DNA of 64,000 nucleotides from Gemmatimonadota bacterium (GTDB lineage: Bacteria; JAAXHH01). The number at the start of each line of letters is the position of its first letter. The stretch's first letter is position 1. This document shows positions 55,035 to 62,414 of this stretch, in pieces. The notes beneath the pieces are model-generated. The model was not told the DNA's origin. It saw nothing but the letters and a program-made list of their open reading frames with translations, and ran no database searches. The translations under genes and the position numbers were made by a program. The stretch lies in the NCBI GenBank assembly GCA_009837395.1, contig VXTP01000030.1, forward strand, positions 145,211 through 209,210. Reading direction: 5' to 3'.

Positions 55035-56243
55035 ATGCAACTGCATGACGACAAACAGACCAATCGCGCGGACAATATCCAGGGCGCCGAGATCCGGCTG
55101 CCGTCCGAGGACCTGACCGCGGACCTGGCCTTCTTCATGAAGACCCTCGGGTTCCGCATGGACAAGATCTACCCCGCCGACTACCCGACGGTCTCCGTGC
55201 TCTCCGGCCACGGGCTCACCATCCGGCTGGAGCAGGATGCCTCCGAGCCTCCCGGTACGCTCAGGATCCTCTGCCGCGATCCTGCGGCCCTGGCCGGCGG
55301 CGAGACCGAACTCACCGCGCCAAACGGCACCCGCGTAGAGATCGTACAGTCCGATCCGCCGCTCGAGATCCCGCCGACGCAGCACGCCTTCCTCGTGCGG
55401 AGACTCAAGGACAACACGCCCTGGGTGATCGGCCGCGCAGGCATGCACTACCGCGACCTGGTGCCCGGCCGCCTGGGCGGGAGCATCATCGCCTCCCACA
55501 TCCGGATCCCCGACGCAGGTCCCGTTCCCGACGTCGTGCACTACCACACCGTGGGATTCCAGTTGATCTTCTGTTACCGGGGCGAGGTGAAGCTCGTCTA
55601 CGAGGACCAGGGGCCGCCCTTCATGCTGAAGGCCGGTGACTGCGTGATCCAGCCCCCGGAGATCCGGCACCGCGTGCTCGAATCGTCCGAGAACCTGCAG
55701 GTGATCGAGATCGGCGTCCCTGCCGACCACGTGACTACCATCGATCATGAGGTCGAGTTGCCGACCCAGGTGCTGAATCCCGATCGCGTCTTCGGCGGTC
55801 AGATGTTCTGCCGCCACCAGCTCAAGGACGCGGAGTGGGAACCGTGGAGACTGGCGGGATTCGAAGCGAGGGAAACGGGCATTGGAAAGGCGACGGACGG
55901 CGTGGCCTCGGTGCAGGTCGCCCGGATGACCACGGGCGCGAACGGCGGTTCAGCCGGTGGTGGCGCTGATGGCACGAGTGGCGGCGTCGCGAGCGGCGGC
56001 CCGGACGGCCGCTCCTTTGACGGCGGCGAACAGGTCACGAGCCACACGGGTGATATCCTCTTCACTTTCGTCATGGAAGGCGAGGTGACGCTGAACGGGG
56101 AAAACCAGGTTTCCCACCGGCTCGAGGCGGGGGACGCCTACGTCATTCCGCCCCACACGAAGACGTCGCTCACGGATCGCTCGGCCGACCTCGAGCTCCT
56201 CGAGGTGGCGCTCCCCGCGCGGTTCGAGACCATCGTGCACTAA
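55035..56243 (+). CDS. VOC-cupin-cupin three-domain protein
   Basis: A 402-residue protein. Residues 15-100 resemble a glyoxalase/VOC half (AEIRLPSEDLTADLAFFMKTLGFRMDK in its key part LTADLAFFMKTLGF). Residues about 130-235 and 285-400 are cupins: VVHYHTVGFQLIFCYRGEVKLVYED in part (VVHYHTVGFQLIF) with PPEIRHRVLES, and GDILFTFVMEGEVTLNGE with PPHTKTSL. The second cupin lacks the first histidine pair. A Gly/Ala/Ser-rich linker (about 295-325) joins them. Function unknown. Overlapping context suggests sugar-acid or keto-acid handling. A shorter diverged copy of part of this gene lies at 59301-59423. Confidence 0.85.
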   Translation: MQLHDDKQTNRADNIQGAEIRLPSEDLTADLAFFMKTLGFRMDKIYPADYPTVSVLSGHGLTIRLEQDASEPPGTLRILCRDPAALAGGETELTAPNGTRVEIVQSDPPLEIPPTQHAFLVRRLKDNTPWVIGRAGMHYRDLVPGRLGGSIIASHIRIPDAGPVPDVVHYHTVGFQLIFCYRGEVKLVYEDQGPPFMLKAGDCVIQPPEIRHRVLESSENLQVIEIGVPADHVTTIDHEVELPTQVLNPDRVFGGQMFCRHQLKDAEWEPWRLAGFEARETGIGKATDGVASVQVARMTTGANGGSAGGGADGTSGGVASGGPDGRSFDGGEQVTSHTGDILFTFVMEGEVTLNGENQVSHRLEAGDAYVIPPHTKTSLTDRSADLELLEVALPARFETIVH

Positions 56244-56321: not shown

Positions 56322-57119
56322 TCAGACGCCCAGCACCCCGCGCAACCGTTCGGACGCCCGGGACAGCACCGTGGGTGGTACGGGTACGTGGTTGTATTCG
56401 GAAAACCGCCGGTGGGCCCAATGGGCGGCATACTGGGACTGAAAGACGTAACGCATCCGGTTCGACGTGACCGGCGCACCCCGGTGCCAACACTGGTTGT
56501 TCTGCAGGTAGACGTCTCCCGCCTTGCAGAAGACCGATTCCAGGCCTCGTCCTTCGAACACGGGATTCTCCTGGCTGTTGGGGTCCCTGCCGGAATAGTG
56601 GCTGCCCGGGACGAACTGCGTCGGGCCGTCCTCCACCGTGTCGATGTCGGTGAGCGCCATCTGGATGGTGAACCACTGCACCGGCATGCGGATGCGGGAG
56701 TCGTGGCGGGGCACGTCGTCCGGCAATGGGAACTCCACCCGGTCGTCCACGTGCCACAGATCGATCGCCTGGCCCGGCGCGTTACGGATCACGTTCTGGC
56801 CGCAGAACTTGCAGTCCTCACCCACGATGGCCTCGGCCAGACTCAGGATCGGTTCGCGGATCAGCATGTCTACGAACACCGCGTCCAGCTCCAGCGTGTT
56901 CCGAAGCACGAAACCGTCTCCCCGTCCGCTCAGGTAATCGGTGCCGGCCAGCACGGGATCGTTGAAGCAACGGTCCGTGACCTCGCGAAGCGCGTCGATT
57001 TCATCCCGGGTCAGTACCCCAGGGATGAGGGTGACCCCATTCCTGTAAAAGTCCTCGAGTATTACCTCCATCCGGGCGTCGTCGAGGCGCTCGCCGGATA
57101 GTATGCGTTTGGAAATCAC
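56322..57119 (-). CDS. PhyH-family dioxygenase
   Basis: A 265-residue PhyH protein with H123-V-D125 (LWHVDDRVEF), VEDGPTQFVPGSHYSG, distal H212 (NQCWHRGAPVTSNRMRY) and arginine. I prefer the GTG start at 57119, which has AGGAG six bases upstream; the frame runs on to 57248 but has no family similarity there. Convergent with the VOC-cupin gene and divergent from the methyltransferase-HNH gene. Confidence 0.92.
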   Translation of the reverse strand: MISKRILSGERLDDARMEVILEDFYRNGVTLIPGVLTRDEIDALREVTDRCFNDPVLAGTDYLSGRGDGFVLRNTLELDAVFVDMLIREPILSLAEAIVGEDCKFCGQNVIRNAPGQAIDLWHVDDRVEFPLPDDVPRHDSRIRMPVQWFTIQMALTDIDTVEDGPTQFVPGSHYSGRDPNSQENPVFEGRGLESVFCKAGDVYLQNNQCWHRGAPVTSNRMRYVFQSQYAAHWAHRRFSEYNHVPVPPTVLSRASERLRGVLGV

Positions 57120-57241
57120 GGGTAACTCCTGTCGGCTGGCACGTACACAGGGCATATCGGACAGACGCGGCCGGCAAACACGGCTGGCCAACGCGGTCGG
57201 CAACCCAGCGGAAGGCTCGGTCGGAAGGCGCATTGGATTGC

Positions 57242-57269
57242 TTGACATATCGCGCCTTCGAGCTACAAT
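57242..57269 (+). promoter_or_regulatory. Promoter of the methyltransferase-HNH gene
   Basis: Perfect TTGACA (57242-57247), 16 bases, TACAAT (57264-57269). The start codon preferred here lies about 115 bases downstream, leaving a long leader. Confidence 0.55.
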
Positions 57270-57390
57270 GGCAAGATCATAGATTATGGTTTCGACATTG
57301 TGTATTCAACCATTTTCCACGTCCCGCGTCCACGTCCCGCGTCCGCGTATCACGATGGTACCGTGCACGTGCGCGGAATTCCCGGTAAAC

Positions 57391-59205
57391 ATGAGCAGCA
57401 CCAGTTACTACGACCTCAACGCCCACGCCCTTGCCGCCCGGTATGACGGTGTCGATCCCGCCGACGTCCACGCCGACTGGGCGCCGGCCCACCTGCGTGA
57501 AGAACCCGGATTCGCCTGCGACATCGGTGCCGGTTCGGGACGCGACGCCAACTGGCTTGCGGCCAGGGGGTGGGAAGTCGTGGCGGTGGAACCGAGCGCG
57601 TTGCGGAACCTCGCCGCGGAACGCGCCCATCCGAGCGTGGTCTGGATGGACGATGCGCTGCCGGACCTGCGGGCATTGCGCGCGCTCGGCCGGCGGTTCG
57701 ACCTGATACTGCTGAGTGGCGTGTGGATGCACGTGGCGCCGAAGGTCCGGGAGCGGGCGTTCCGCATCCTCTCCGAGCTGCTCAACCCATCCGGACTGCT
57801 GGTGATTACGCTAAGGCGCGGCGGAGACGCCGCGGACAACGCCGCCCGTGGATTCCATGACACTTCGGCAGAGGAGCTTATCGGGTTTGCCAACCGGCGG
57901 GCCATCGCGCTGCGCAGCCATTCGACGCAACCGGACGTGACGCGCCCCGGCATAGACTGGGAGACGCTGGTCTTCGCCATGCCGGACGATGGCACCGGCA
58001 GCCTACCGCTGCTGCGCCACGTGATCGTGAACGACAACAAGTCTTCGACCTACAAGCTGGGGCTGCTTAGGACCCTGGTGCGACTCGCCGAAACGGCGCC
58101 GGGACTGGTCATCGATCGCACGGACGATTACGTGGAGATTCCCTTCGGCGCCGTCGGTCTGTACTGGCTGAAGCAATACTTGTCCCTCGTCCTGAATCAC
58201 GGGCTGCCGCAACGCCCTTCGGGACCGGGCGGTTATGGCTGGGCAAAGGAAGCGTTCTATCAATTGCGAGACTTTTCGCCTTCCGACCTTCGGCTTGGTG
58301 CACGGATGGATGCGGACCGGGCCGTCATCCTTACCCGCGCCATAAACGACGCCTGTGAAAATATCCAGCGAATGCCGGTACGCTACATCACGTTTCCCGG
58401 TACCGATGACCGGCAATTGTTCGAATCCGGGTTTTCCAGATTGCGGGCGACGTCGCGGCCCATCGTCCTGTCTCGCGAATTCCTGGTGCGGTTCGGCCGC
58501 TTCAGGATACCCGCGTTGCTGTGGCAGGCCCTCAGCCAGTTCGCCTGCTGGCTGGAGCCGGTCATCGTAGGGGAATGGCGGCAACTGACTTCGAACTGGG
58601 ATGACCCGGCAAACCGGGGTAAGGATATTCGGCGGGCGGCCAACGTCGGCCAATCTTTCGGCCCATCCACCGGCCAAACCGCCGGACAGTCTGCCGGTCA
58701 ATCCGCCGGAAAGCCCTCCCTGGTCAGGGAAGCCGGGGCCGAAACGGCAACGAACGACCCGTACGAATGGACCGAAAGCCGCTACGACACCGGCATCGCC
58801 CAGGAACGGGCGAAACAGTTGCGCGATGTCGGATTCCCGCTCACCTGCGTCTGGTCCGCTACGCGAATACGAAACGCTCCGCAAATCGACCACTGTTTTC
58901 CGTGGGCGCGCTGGCGCAACAACGATCTCTGGAACCTGCTGCCGACCCGCGGCAACGTCAATCTCAGCAAGAGCGACCGGCTGCCTTCCTCCAGCGCCAT
59001 GGCTGAAGCGCGAGACCGCATGCTGGATTGGTGGGAGAACGCCTGGGTCCACTCACCGCAGGAGGACCGGTTTTTCATGGAAGCGCGCTATTCCCTGCCG
59101 GGGCTCGACGTCGACACACCCGGGCTGGAAGAGATCTTCACCGCCGCCCAGCACCAGCGCGCGCGCCTGAAACAGGACCAGCAACTGATCGAGTGGCCGA
59201 CCTGA
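57391..59205 (+). CDS. SAM-dependent methyltransferase fused to an HNH endonuclease
   Basis: A 604-residue fusion. Residues 10-200 form a class I methyltransferase: motif I ACDIGAGSGRDANW (43-55), VVAVEPS, then LILLSGVWMHV and LVITLRRGG; there is no N/DPPY motif of DNA amino-methylases. Residues about 205-400 are an unrecognised domain (IVNDNKSSTYKLGLLRTLVR, LYWLKQYLSLVL). After a GQTAGQSAGQSAG linker, residues about 495-530 form an HNH nuclease: IDHCFPWARW, NNDLWNLLPT, NLSKSDRLPS. Target is unknown; the make-up recalls restriction-type or RNA-repair defence enzymes. ATG 57391 fits where homology begins; ATG 57286, near the predicted transcript start, is an alternative. Confidence 0.85.
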   Translation: MSSTSYYDLNAHALAARYDGVDPADVHADWAPAHLREEPGFACDIGAGSGRDANWLAARGWEVVAVEPSALRNLAAERAHPSVVWMDDALPDLRALRALGRRFDLILLSGVWMHVAPKVRERAFRILSELLNPSGLLVITLRRGGDAADNAARGFHDTSAEELIGFANRRAIALRSHSTQPDVTRPGIDWETLVFAMPDDGTGSLPLLRHVIVNDNKSSTYKLGLLRTLVRLAETAPGLVIDRTDDYVEIPFGAVGLYWLKQYLSLVLNHGLPQRPSGPGGYGWAKEAFYQLRDFSPSDLRLGARMDADRAVILTRAINDACENIQRMPVRYITFPGTDDRQLFESGFSRLRATSRPIVLSREFLVRFGRFRIPALLWQALSQFACWLEPVIVGEWRQLTSNWDDPANRGKDIRRAANVGQSFGPSTGQTAGQSAGQSAGKPSLVREAGAETATNDPYEWTESRYDTGIAQERAKQLRDVGFPLTCVWSATRIRNAPQIDHCFPWARWRNNDLWNLLPTRGNVNLSKSDRLPSSSAMAEARDRMLDWWENAWVHSPQEDRFFMEARYSLPGLDVDTPGLEEIFTAAQHQRARLKQDQQLIEWPT

Positions 59206-59269
59206 CCGTGGCGGCCGGTCCGACCTGACCCCACCCTGACGAAGACGGACCGCCCGGCCGAACACCACC

Positions 59270-59989
59270 CTACGCCTCGTCCATCACGGCCTGGATCATG
59301 GCCTCCCACATCCGGTTCGCCGACGCGGGACCGTACCCGACGTCGTCCACTACAAAATCGAGGGATTCCAACTGATCTTCCGTTACCGGGGCGAGGTGAA
59401 GCTCGTCTACGAGGACCAGGGGTCTCACAGGCAGCCAGTAGCATGGATTCCTCCCGTATCTACTAATCCAGTTTCTGCGAATGAATCGATGTAGTCCATC
59501 ACCAGAGTCCTTGATGATGAAACGGTGTTTTCGCGCCCATTGGTCCTTTATCGCCGTCGCTTCATTCTGGTTCAACAGCTTTTGATCAATCATGGATTGG
59601 AGCAGATCCGGTGTTGTAATTACCTTAAGGTTTTGGTTGATACTATGCGCGTGTTTTATGGCCCGGCGGTCATCCATTGCCAAAACGTAATCGCGATGGA
59701 CCGCAAGCGCGATGGCAGAACACTCGCCTCCACCCAGGGTTCTCGTTGCAATGAGTGATGCAAATAACTTTAGTTCATCAGTACTCTTTATGGTCATCTG
59801 CTGTAGCGTGCCGTCATGAAGGGAATTCCGTAATTGCCGCTTTTGATCTGTGTAATGGTCGGTTATTTCTGACACCACATGATCGGTAACGATGAAATCA
59901 AGGGGATGTCGCCTTAATAGGTCCAAACGAGCTATTCGCAGGAAATTGACAAGCACAGAAGTATCCAGGACGGCCAAAGACATTTGCAT
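59270..59989 (-). CDS. PIN-domain toxin-like protein with read-through tail
   Basis: A 239-residue frame. Residues 4-170 form a PIN-type RNase: VLDTSVLVNFLR (D9), VVSEITDH (E41), GGGECSAIALAV and YVLAMDDRRAI. From about residue 189 the frame is an antisense reading of a cupin-gene fragment and ends AMIQAVMDEA, matching the UxuA-like C-terminus, so the native toxin end has been lost. It lies 12 bases downstream of the XRE-ImmA gene, its likely antitoxin/partner. AT-rich coding, unlike the flanks. Confidence 0.78.
   Translation of the reverse strand: MQMSLAVLDTSVLVNFLRIARLDLLRRHPLDFIVTDHVVSEITDHYTDQKRQLRNSLHDGTLQQMTIKSTDELKLFASLIATRTLGGGECSAIALAVHRDYVLAMDDRRAIKHAHSINQNLKVITTPDLLQSMIDQKLLNQNEATAIKDQWARKHRFIIKDSGDGLHRFIRRNWISRYGRNPCYWLPVRPLVLVDELHLAPVTEDQLESLDFVVDDVGYGPASANRMWEAMIQAVMDEA
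59279..59303. repeat. 25-bp direct repeat, left copy
   Basis: This 25-base sequence recurs exactly at 61437-61461, where it encodes the C-terminus of the UxuA-like protein (minus strand). The two copies bracket the AT-rich PIN/XRE-ImmA cassette. It contains CATCACGGCCTGGATCATGG. Confidence 0.85.
59301..59423 (+). pseudogene. Fragment of a cupin gene related to 55491-55613
   Basis: About 123 bases align with 55491-55613 of the VOC-cupin-cupin gene at roughly 80-85% identity, e.g. both contain GGCGAGGTGAAGCTCGTCTA. One base is missing near 59330, breaking the frame. The match stops abruptly at 59423, where AT-rich cassette sequence begins. Confidence 0.8.
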
Positions 59990-60001
59990 CGCAATTCCCC
60001 T

Positions 60002-61234
60002 TCAATCCCCTCGAGCTTTAGCAGCAAAGTCCAGGAATCGTGGACCATCGATTTTCAACATTTTACTGAGTTCGAGAAGTCGTCCCTGCGAGATCTCTTC
60101 CTGCCGATAGGCTTCAATGGCCAGATTTGCAACCTCGAATCGTAACTCACGGCCTGACCGTTGTATATCGTCTTTTCTCTCGACACTATCCGCGTCACTC
60201 AACTCGTTGAGGAACTGTCTACCGAATTCCTCAAGTGCTATTTGTCTGTTCGTCTCTTTCTCAGACAGTAACTTAAGGCTTTTAAGTCTATATAGAGCCA
60301 CCTGATAGCTTACACCGAAACGGTGTGCTACTTTCGCTATATCCTTGAATGTGACTGTTCGAGAGCTTGATTCCGTACGTATAACTCCTTCAGAGGAACC
60401 ACCGCTCGCAGCATTGTATACAGTCTGAACCCTATGGTACGGGGTTTTAAGTTCCAGATTCCGAAGTAAATCATATACTCCATCGGCAGGCATCAGAAAA
60501 GACGCTGCAAATGCATTAGCTCTTACTTCAACCAGTTCCGATGAATTGCCACTGCTAGATACGGTCAACTGTCCATTTCTGTCCATTAAGGCATGCGCGT
60601 ATTCATGAGCGTACGAGAACTGTTTGCGTCCTCGTGAATGGTTCGCGTTTACCACAATGGCCAGACCGAAAGAGAAATGATTCAGAAATAGTCCAGAAAC
60701 ACCATTGGGCAGTTCCGCATCCGATGCCCAAATACCCTGTGATACGATGAGTTCGGAGATTCCATGAACTGGGGATTCGCCTAAGCCTAAGCGTCGTCGT
60801 TCTTCGATCGCCGCCTTATTGCCTTGAGTAATCGCGTCCCCCTTAGTCCTGGGAGATCTGAAATCAAACGTGGGTAAACCGGTACGAGATTCCAGTCCAA
60901 GGATCTCTTTCAGTGTAACTCCTTCTTGACAGAGATTAAGACGCTCCCAAACCTGATCGCGCACTATAGGATCCACATTTAACTCCGGCGCAGTGCGATA
61001 TAGGGCAACGAAGATATCCTGTTCCTCGGCGGCTTCTTGAAAGAAGAAGCTTATCGGTCGTCGAAAACACTCAGCAAGTTTTGACAGTTCCAGTGTCGAA
61101 ACTGACCGGTTACCGGATTCCATCTGAGTAATCGCCGTTCTTGTCACCCCGATGGCTTCCGCCGTCGACTGTTGACTGAGCCCCCTGAATTCCCGCGCAT
61201 AACGCAGTCTTTGTCCGAGCTCTCTGAGATCCAT
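60002..61234 (-). CDS. XRE-family regulator with ImmA/IrrE-type metallopeptidase domain
   Basis: A 410-residue protein. An N-terminal HTH (LGQRLRYAREFRGLSQQSTA, IGVTRTAITQMESGNRSVS) is followed by a long helical part and a zinc peptidase with H210-E-Y-A-H214 (QFSYAHEYAHALMD) and the later RANAFAASFLMP glutamate region. Such proteins act as proteolytic switches on phage-like elements and as antitoxins to PIN toxins. ATG 61234 is used; a 17-residue extension is possible. First gene of the cassette, with its own promoter. Confidence 0.9.
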   Translation of the reverse strand: MDLRELGQRLRYAREFRGLSQQSTAEAIGVTRTAITQMESGNRSVSTLELSKLAECFRRPISFFFQEAAEEQDIFVALYRTAPELNVDPIVRDQVWERLNLCQEGVTLKEILGLESRTGLPTFDFRSPRTKGDAITQGNKAAIEERRRLGLGESPVHGISELIVSQGIWASDAELPNGVSGLFLNHFSFGLAIVVNANHSRGRKQFSYAHEYAHALMDRNGQLTVSSSGNSSELVEVRANAFAASFLMPADGVYDLLRNLELKTPYHRVQTVYNAASGGSSEGVIRTESSSRTVTFKDIAKVAHRFGVSYQVALYRLKSLKLLSEKETNRQIALEEFGRQFLNELSDADSVERKDDIQRSGRELRFEVANLAIEAYRQEEISQGRLLELSKMLKIDGPRFLDFAAKARGD

Positions 61235-61282
61235 TACTCTTCTCCCTCGCAGTGGTGGATCGGTTGGCGATACGTAATAGGA

Positions 61283-61311
61283 CATATACTCATTTCGAAC
61301 ATTAATGTCAA
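61283..61311 (-). promoter_or_regulatory. Promoter of the XRE-ImmA/PIN cassette
   Basis: Minus strand: TTGACA (61306-61311), 17 bases, TATATG (61283-61288). The spacer contains the palindrome TTCGAA, a possible XRE half-site pair. Confidence 0.6.
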
Positions 61312-61427: not shown

Positions 61428-62414
61428 CTACCCCTTGTCCATCACGGCCTGGATCATGGCCCGGATGTAGCCGAACTCGTAGGCGAAGGCCTGCCGGTAG
61501 CTGTCCGGATCCTTGTGACCCGGCGCGTGGTCCGGCACGCACATGTGCGGGTAGCCAACCTCCCTGAGCGCCTGCATGTTGCGGTGCATGTTCATCACGC
61601 CCTCGTCCGGCCAGACCTCCTGGAACTTGTTTCGCCCGCCCACGATGTTGCGGAAGTGGCAGAGGAAGATCTTCTTGCGCGAGCCGAGGTAGCGGATGAT
61701 GTCCGGCACCTCGTTGAGGGGATCGAGGGAACTCTCCGCCATGCAGCCCAGGCAGAGGTTCACGCCGTGATAGGGACTGGGGCAGATCTCGATGAACTGC
61801 TTGAATCCGTCGAAGCCGCCGAGCACGCGGTCCACACAGCGGTATCCGGGCGGCAGCCAGGGGTCGCAGGGATGGCAGGCCATTCGGACCTTGCACTCCG
61901 TCGCCACGGGGATCACCCGCTCCAGGAAGTAGGTGATGCGGGCCCAGTTCATCTCGGCGGTCACGGGCTCGTCGTACCTGGCCGGCCGGTCCTTCGCCTT
62001 CTCCAGGTCCCAGGTGCTGTAGATCGATCCCCCGCGGCCGGGCGGATCGCTCTCGGTGCGCTGGTTCTCCATCTCGCACAGGTAGTATTTGATCGCGGGT
62101 ATGCCCGCTTCCGCGGCCTGGCGCACCATGTTGCAGACCAGCTCGATTTCCTTGTCGCCCTCTTCATAGTTGCCCAGCATGTAGTTGGGCACCTGGCCGC
62201 CGTCCACGTTGAACTGGGCGATTGGAAGCGCCACCATCTCCATCTCGATCCCAAACCGGGCGCACTTCTCCTTCTTCGCCGCCAGTTCCTCCACGTCCCA
62301 GCCGTATTCCCGGTGGAAGGTGATGTTGTTCTCGTTCTTGTTGAAAACGCCGTGACGGGCGAGATACTCGAGGTCTTCGTCCGCCGTGCTGAACTGCTGG
62401 GTGCCGACGTGCAT
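61428..62414 (-). CDS. UxuA-like mannonate dehydratase family protein
   Basis: A 328-residue TIM-barrel protein. ACHPCDPWLPPGYRCVDRVLG (key ACHPCDPW), NLCLGCMAES, FLCHFRNIVGG, DEGVMNM and PDHAPGHKDP line up with the metal- and substrate-binding motifs of D-mannonate dehydratase, though CHPDDPP is altered to CHPCDPW. It likely dehydrates a uronate-derived acid to 2-keto-3-deoxygluconate or is an isomerase relative. Its last codons carry the right copy of the 25-base repeat. Same strand as an amidohydrolase and a molybdoenzyme gene. Confidence 0.85.
   Translation of the reverse strand: MHVGTQQFSTADEDLEYLARHGVFNKNENNITFHREYGWDVEELAAKKEKCARFGIEMEMVALPIAQFNVDGGQVPNYMLGNYEEGDKEIELVCNMVRQAAEAGIPAIKYYLCEMENQRTESDPPGRGGSIYSTWDLEKAKDRPARYDEPVTAEMNWARITYFLERVIPVATECKVRMACHPCDPWLPPGYRCVDRVLGGFDGFKQFIEICPSPYHGVNLCLGCMAESSLDPLNEVPDIIRYLGSRKKIFLCHFRNIVGGRNKFQEVWPDEGVMNMHRNMQALREVGYPHMCVPDHAPGHKDPDSYRQAFAYEFGYIRAMIQAVMDKG
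61437..61461. repeat. 25-bp direct repeat, right copy
   Basis: Exact copy of 59279-59303, inside the 3' end of the UxuA-like gene. This is the ancestral context: it reads AMIQAVMDK in the minus frame. Confidence 0.85.

Follow-up and report, generated by a model that had tools for sequence, protein, structure and literature searches.

A widespread fusion of a class I methyltransferase with a Cas9-type HNH domain is a candidate anti-invader gene

Results

The stretch of DNA that we analysed, hereafter the window, comprises 64,000 bp of a Gemmatimonadota genome (contig VXTP01000030.1). It contains a gene coding for a class I SAM-dependent methyltransferase which is not of the DNA-methylating type and which is continued on the same chain by a middle domain and a Cas9-type HNH nuclease domain (Table 1). 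We propose, at a probability of roughly 0.55, that this is a horizontally spread anti-invader gene whose methyltransferase would control the DNA-cutting effector on the same chain. Apparently this methyltransferase–HNH fusion is undescribed so far; a search covering part of the literature did not find a description of it.

Table 1. Features of the fusion gene and of its surroundings in the window
Feature	Position	Strand	Basis and remarks
Phytanoyl-CoA dioxygenase (PhyH) family gene, left border of hotspot	56322..57248	-	in 11/11 genus members searched, with or without fusion; outside the system
Sigma-70-like promoter TTGACA-16-TACAAT	57242..57269	+	11/12 match; kept in genus members
Methyltransferase–middle–HNH fusion gene	57391..59205	+	open frame, 604 aa; full-length relatives in 76 loci
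Class I SAM-dependent methyltransferase, residues 1-196	57391..57978	+	Pfam Methyltransf_23/25/11/12; predicted fold
SAM-binding motif I DIGAGSGRD, residues 44-52	57520..57546	+	with acidic E67; near-invariant in 77 sequences
Middle domain, residues 197-410, mostly helical	57979..58620	+	mostly confident prediction; presumed DNA reader or coupling domain
Disordered linker, residues 411-455	58621..58755	+	pLDDT <50 at 414-452; GQTAGQSAG repeats private to the genome
Cas9-type HNH nuclease domain (HNH_4), residues 456-604	58756..59202	+	Pfam HNH_4; profile and fold matches
Catalytic D500-H501, equivalent of SpCas9 D839-H840	58888..58893	+	77/77 and 76/77; aligned to Cas9 DH
N524 and K527, equivalents of SpCas9 N863 and K866	58960..58971	+	77/77 each; aligned N..K
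PIN + HTH-M78 toxin–antitoxin-like pair	59270..61285	-	separate cargo of the same hotspot; outside the system
Isomerase-like gene, right border of hotspot	61428..62414	-	at the site's other side in 9/9 genus members read; outside the system

Architecture of the fusion protein

Mechanical ORF reading of the window places the start of the frame at 57286, and in the alignment with relatives the homologues begin at 57391. The initial annotation had described a methyltransferase and an HNH nuclease joined in one polypeptide. This is borne out by the single unbroken frame and by Pfam matches to Methyltransf_23 (E 7.6e-12) and HNH_4 (E 4.6e-6). Together with the 76 full-length relatives that were aligned to it, the window fusion forms a family of 77 members. 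Class I methyltransferase models recognise every member, and HNH_4 recognises 76. The AlphaFold2 model built from these members (mean pLDDT 87.6, pTM 0.84) is confident everywhere except for the disordered residues 414-452. The near-consensus promoter that had been assigned to the gene was found again and is conserved in the host genus; in the region two promoter-like sites were found versus 0.4 expected by chance.

Within the host genus the whole gene has a dN/dS of 0.20 and is free of stop codons in eight genomes. Calculated by part for the eight genus members, dN/dS is 0.166 for the methyltransferase, 0.185 for the middle domain and 0.180 for the HNH domain versus 0.74 for the linker, from which we conclude that purifying selection acts on the three domains and not on the linker. 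The GQTAGQSAG repeat in the linker, to which attention had been drawn, does exist. As a functional element it was rejected because it is disordered (pLDDT about 35), is absent from the relatives, whose linkers are shorter, and evolves nearly neutrally.

Pfam places the class I methyltransferase at residues 36-172. The features of the class, a Rossmann fold, a GxGxG motif I and an acidic residue after strand 2, are all present, and the predicted fold matches SAM methyltransferases, with VIA as the best match (Z 21.0, rmsd 2.5 over 187 residues). The nearest folds comprise NodS, UbiG, ChlM, CmoM, METTL6 and NTMT1, that is, enzymes acting on small molecules, tRNA and protein termini. Since this mix is broad, no substrate can be deduced from the fold. 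Nor is the protein assigned to TehB, UbiG or another named small-molecule methyltransferase, as it scored 30 bits versus the NCBIfam equivalog cut-offs of 175-218 of the best two models. No DNA methylase is found among the top 50 fold matches of the domain, and neither the fusion protein nor its 77-member family gave a DNA-methylase Pfam match. In agreement with the earlier statement that the catalytic tetrapeptide of DNA methylases is missing, the 604-aa protein contains neither a [DNS]PP[YFW] motif nor any PP or PC dipeptide. The only PADLOC model matching the methyltransferase is mad2 of MADS (E 2.6e-11 for the window, 6e-16 for the phage form described below), and this match is limited to about 120-160 residues of the methyltransferase region.

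The HNH_4 match is located at residues 495-532 and lies above the cut-off of the model. Both in sequence and in fold the best relatives of this part are the HNH domains of Cas9 (Z up to 6.8, rmsd 3.6 over 107 residues). In the printed alignment with Cas9 the DH and N..K residues of both sequences stand opposite each other, and the spacing (23 from H to N, 3 from N to K) is identical to that of D839, H840, N863 and K866 in SpCas9. The D-H general-base pair and the N and K metal-site residues thus occur in the beta-beta-alpha order of the HNH_4/Cas9 type. Lack of conservation of the catalytic histidine had been named as a possible objection; H501 is kept in all but one of the 77 sequences. Judged from these likenesses, the HNH domain probably cuts DNA, and it would introduce one nick per active site as the HNH domain of Cas9 does. 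Unlike Cas9, the fusion protein is without RuvC and guide-RNA parts, and no link to CRISPR was noticed.

Between the two enzymatic parts an unknown domain had been postulated, and indeed residues 197-410 have no recognised fold. No Pfam, NCBIfam or PADLOC model covers residues 197-450, and a Foldseek search with the middle and HNH parts against PDB and viral structures gave matches via the HNH part only. A resemblance between KSSTYKL and KSPHKV had raised the idea that the middle domain is a sulfur-binding domain (SBD) like that of the Vibrio proteins described below. A profile comparison with this SBD, using a set that was not diverse, lent the idea no support (probability below 1%), though the two motifs align in register. 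The middle domain may bind DNA or couple the two halves of the protein.

Distribution

Scanning 84,980 species genomes for motif patterns confirmed at least 474 relatives. The best 80 of these at least 474 loci derive mainly from Gamma-, Alpha- and Betaproteobacteria, and also from metagenome-assembled genomes titled Acidobacteria, Nitrospirae, Cyanobacteria and others. The fused form is present in about 4% of the sampled Pseudomonadota species, in 23% of the Vibrio species and in 26% of the Marinobacter species. As far as the sampled genomes tell, the fusion is widespread in bacteria. Genes in unannotated contigs were called as greedy ORFs.

The conservation of the motifs that served as patterns in the scan is partly built in; D500, H501, N524 and K527 lie outside these patterns. 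A pattern-free repeat was carried out with a profile of the middle and HNH parts alone against 398 Pseudomonadota genomes. It yielded 15 substantive members and one degraded fragment. Directly before the middle part a methyltransferase was present in all 15 members, one of them being a split gene. Motif I was found in 13 of the 15, including the split gene, and the other two carry the one-residue variants DVGAASGRD and DVGAGNGRD. On plasmids there were nine near-full matches, all in records with a full-length fusion, and a tenth match to a short HNH fragment. An intact middle–HNH unit without methyltransferase was seen neither in the 398 genomes nor in the plasmids. Viral contigs yielded no fused form and a single match to the HNH part.

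The hotspot in the host genus

In the genus members that were read, the fusion always lies between the PhyH-family gene and the isomerase gene. Six genomes carry the fusion alone at this site and the window carries it together with the PIN/HTH-M78 pair. This pair stands without the fusion in G002, and in G010 it is accompanied by a CBASS operon (L126:4200-8565) with a patatin effector (PADLOC, E 4e-80) and a cyclase fused to an E2-like domain (E 2e-115). G007 has an unrelated acyltransferase-like gene instead. By its gene content the hotspot is an exchange site at which the fusion takes the place of known defence cargo. In the methyltransferase tree the window fusion nests among gammaproteobacterial relatives and therefore was probably acquired horizontally.

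The initial annotation had emphasized that the gene sits next to a toxin–antitoxin cassette. The pair itself is real, with PIN at 59270-59989 and HTH-M78 at 60002-61285, convergent to the fusion gene. The significance attached to it did not hold up, as the pair is not linked to the fusion in other genomes. Being found alone in one genome and with CBASS in another, and being absent where the fusion stands alone, it was ruled out as a part of the system.

The sequence 59206-59440 is chimeric debris, in which a piece of 36 bp corresponds to the 3' end of the isomerase gene and another of about 130 bp to a cupin gene (55035-56243). Because the PIN frame on the minus strand runs into this debris, the annotated C-terminus of the toxin is probably not native.

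Defence-gene neighbours at other loci

At eight loci from several lineages the fusion is adjoined by a SauUSI-like gene of about 1,040 codons (PLD, SF2 helicase, DUF3427), whose domains differ from those of the fusion. Most often this gene is located directly upstream and in the same direction, and it matches the PADLOC type IV restriction model mREase_IV with E values of 1e-224 to 1e-252. In Marinobacter it immediately precedes the fusion at 14 of 30 fused loci and the methyltransferase at two of five standalone loci, in L212 with an overlap of 4 bp. Cytosine-methylase genes, Qat genes (L018), McrBC (L020) and a cluster that is Mza-like as read from the sequence alone (L078) are further neighbours of the fusion. 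In Vibrio, DdmDE-like genes directly precede a standalone methyltransferase with its SBD-HNH partner in one locus (L203) and a fused copy in another (L218), where they score as DdmD (E 1e-100) and DdmE (E 2e-30). Several neighbourhoods, among them many Vibrio fused loci, are without a recognised defence gene.

Three standalone Marinobacter methyltransferases (L211, L214, L215) face a NOV_C-domain gene, which in L214 (L214:5026-5874) matches the PADLOC candidate PDC-S36 (E 1e-110).

It had been stated that the reading should be dropped if the close homologues were all situated in housekeeping operons. This is not so, and a chance association with such operons was ruled out by the hotspot and operon data. 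Phage-defence genes, for which a neighbourhood survey had been proposed, were found in the form of CBASS at the hotspot in G010 and of SauUSI-like, DdmDE, Mza-like, Qat and McrBC genes elsewhere. The fusion is thus located as defence systems are, in defence islands and hotspots, with patchy occurrence and signs of mobility. A role of the fusion in defence appears likely from these surroundings.

Exchange of the partner of the methyltransferase

The methyltransferase also occurs on its own. Of 196 Vibrio genomes, 46 carry it fused and about 35 as a standalone protein of about 200 aa. At all 15 standalone loci read, it is followed on the same strand by the gene of a 375-aa protein with an N-terminal SBD (PDB 8h0l, E 3e-36) and a C-terminal HNH_2 nuclease (PDB 6yex, E 7e-36). 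A standalone methyltransferase directly adjoins 29 of the 34 Vibrio SBD-HNH genes, and an SBD-HNH gene directly adjoins 29 of the 35 standalone methyltransferases, the gaps ranging from -58 to +19 bp, mostly from -4 to +19 bp. As five SBD-HNH genes have no adjacent methyltransferase, this partner has no strict need of one. Mutual exclusion of the fused and standalone forms in Vibrio is weak (odds ratio 0.21, p 0.03, uncorrected for relatedness).

In the methyltransferase tree, which stems from a quick search and whose shuffled-label comparison is affected by near-copies, the standalone forms nest inside the fused radiation. Ten changes of the partner state are found on the full tree, seven when three unsure rows are left out, and at least six are forced by well-supported branches. 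A single clade of standalone forms is rejected (p-AU 0.0002). Repeated partner exchange, as read from this tree, is robust. The partners exchanged are the fused HNH_4 nuclease, the separate SBD-HNH protein, the SauUSI-like helicase-nuclease and, in temperate phages, a two-transmembrane protein.

This last form contains a more distant standalone methyltransferase, found in 19 viral contigs as well as 29 of 5,426 E. coli genomes. Where the upstream side is readable, a protein of 190-220 aa with two predicted membrane segments is encoded there, its gene usually overlapping that of the methyltransferase by 4 bp; the protein matches no model of PHROG or PADLOC. The cassette is present in L261-L272 and L275 and in phage phi458 (L023:2336-3519), and it usually adjoins a convergent PAPS-reductase gene. 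Because the phage form sits on a long branch of the tree, it is less certain that it belongs to the same functional family. It would support the picture of partner swapping and is not decisive for it.

Some loci show rearranged forms. A Vibrio frame of 428 aa (G258 C1:969-2243) joins residues 1-142 of the methyltransferase to a fragment of SBD-HNH (80-373) and apparently arose from the two-gene form by a deletion that fused the genes. One cluster (L047:7091-13078) combines a decayed fused copy and a further copy of the methyltransferase with a PAPS-reductase gene and with an SBD-HNH gene that matches NCBIfam PT-DNA_restrict (E 1e-80). On a Streptomyces plasmid (L112:6965-8095) an outgroup family methyltransferase has a C-terminal region that is GNAT acetyltransferase-like by eye. 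In L060 the fused copy has lost the SAM motif (it reads ALHLGGASSLASRN where others read ALDVGAGSGRDA) and has kept the HNH residues, and an intact standalone methyltransferase is located about 2 kb away. This is consistent with a methyltransferase activity that is needed but may act in trans.

Discussion

Type IIG/IIL restriction enzymes are N6-adenine methylases with a [DNS]PP[YFW] motif, a target-recognition domain and usually a PD-(D/E)XK nuclease. The fusion resembles them in carrying a SAM methyltransferase and a nuclease on one chain and differs from them in its non-DNA-type methyltransferase and its C-terminal Cas9-type HNH domain; Pfam and a motif scan detected no N6-adenine methylase, target-recognition domain or motif in it. 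With the phosphorothioate-dependent type IV endonucleases of the SBD-HNH kind (ScoMcrA/SprMcrA-like) it shares an HNH nuclease, and a relative of its methyltransferase is their operon partner in Vibrio. Unlike in these enzymes, no SBD was detected in it by the profile comparison, and its nuclease is HNH_4, not HNH_2.

What the methyltransferase does for the nuclease can be addressed tentatively. That it exerts control over the effector is an assumption to which we give somewhat less than even odds. In such a mechanism the methyltransferase would be the common sensor or regulator, the effector would stay silent as long as the methyltransferase has SAM bound or is turning over, and it would be released when an infection perturbs SAM or the substrate of the methyltransferase. 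We prefer a switch or sensor because one methyltransferase lineage pairs with unrelated effectors, a pattern of modular immunity with a shared control part. Carried to its full extent, the fused Cas9-type HNH, the sulfur-binding HNH nuclease, the helicase-nuclease and the prophage membrane protein might all be interchangeable effectors of one non-DNA methyltransferase acting as a SAM- or substrate-sensing switch, and together they would make up a hitherto undescribed class of modular immunity in bacteria; in this general form the proposal is less likely than not to hold.

The main rival is self-marking of DNA, a one-chain analogue of restriction-modification in which the methyltransferase would mark the DNA of the host by an unusual chemistry (or add its mark to the backbone or to a base that is already modified), with unmarked DNA being cut by the HNH domain. 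The asymmetry described above, intact methyltransferases without a nuclease partner yet no intact middle–HNH unit without a methyltransferase, is what such a system would leave, most bacterial partners are DNA nucleases, and the L060 locus would fit modification in trans. Against this stand the missing DNA-methylase motif IV, the top 50 folds without a DNA methylase, and the fact that the SauUSI-like and SBD-HNH partners belong to families that cleave DNA carrying modifications rather than unmodified DNA (PMC3874153; PMC6224610). In addition, the phage form is paired with a membrane protein, which lies beyond the protection that DNA marking could give. For this reason partner swapping, as far as it can be read from genomes, favours a control role or the sensor role that the initial annotation had suggested as one possibility, and we regard self-marking as improbable.

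Less probable still is that the methyltransferase assists type IV restriction by writing or maturing a mark on invading DNA or nucleotides, which the attached or neighbouring nuclease would read and cut. This would account for the association with the SauUSI-like and SBD-HNH type IV families and for the sulfur-related genes of PAPS-reductase type that lie next to the methyltransferase in phages and L047. However, SauUSI works as a single polypeptide without helper or partner (PMC3874153), the phage PAPS-reductase genes lie on the other strand and belong to the common accessory genes of phages, and an SBD-like reader is not detectable in the fused middle domain. A non-defence function, in which the methyltransferase would act on nucleotides, RNA or metabolites, the HNH domain would be structural or serve DNA repair, and the gene would have spread by chance with islands, agrees with the small-molecule and tRNA enzymes among the fold matches and with outgroup standalone methyltransferases beside ClpB or metabolic genes, but is the least probable alternative in view of the patchy distribution, the hotspot swapping with CBASS and the repeated exchange among nucleases.

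If the fusion is an anti-invader gene controlled by its methyltransferase, a common and apparently overlooked family would constitute a defence module in which a kind of methyltransferase not used in restriction-modification does the discriminating. The recurrence of a 'class I SAM-dependent methyltransferase' without assigned function next to type IV nucleases and in temperate phages would also find an explanation, and a testable question would arise, namely what a non-DNA methyltransferase does for a DNA nuclease.
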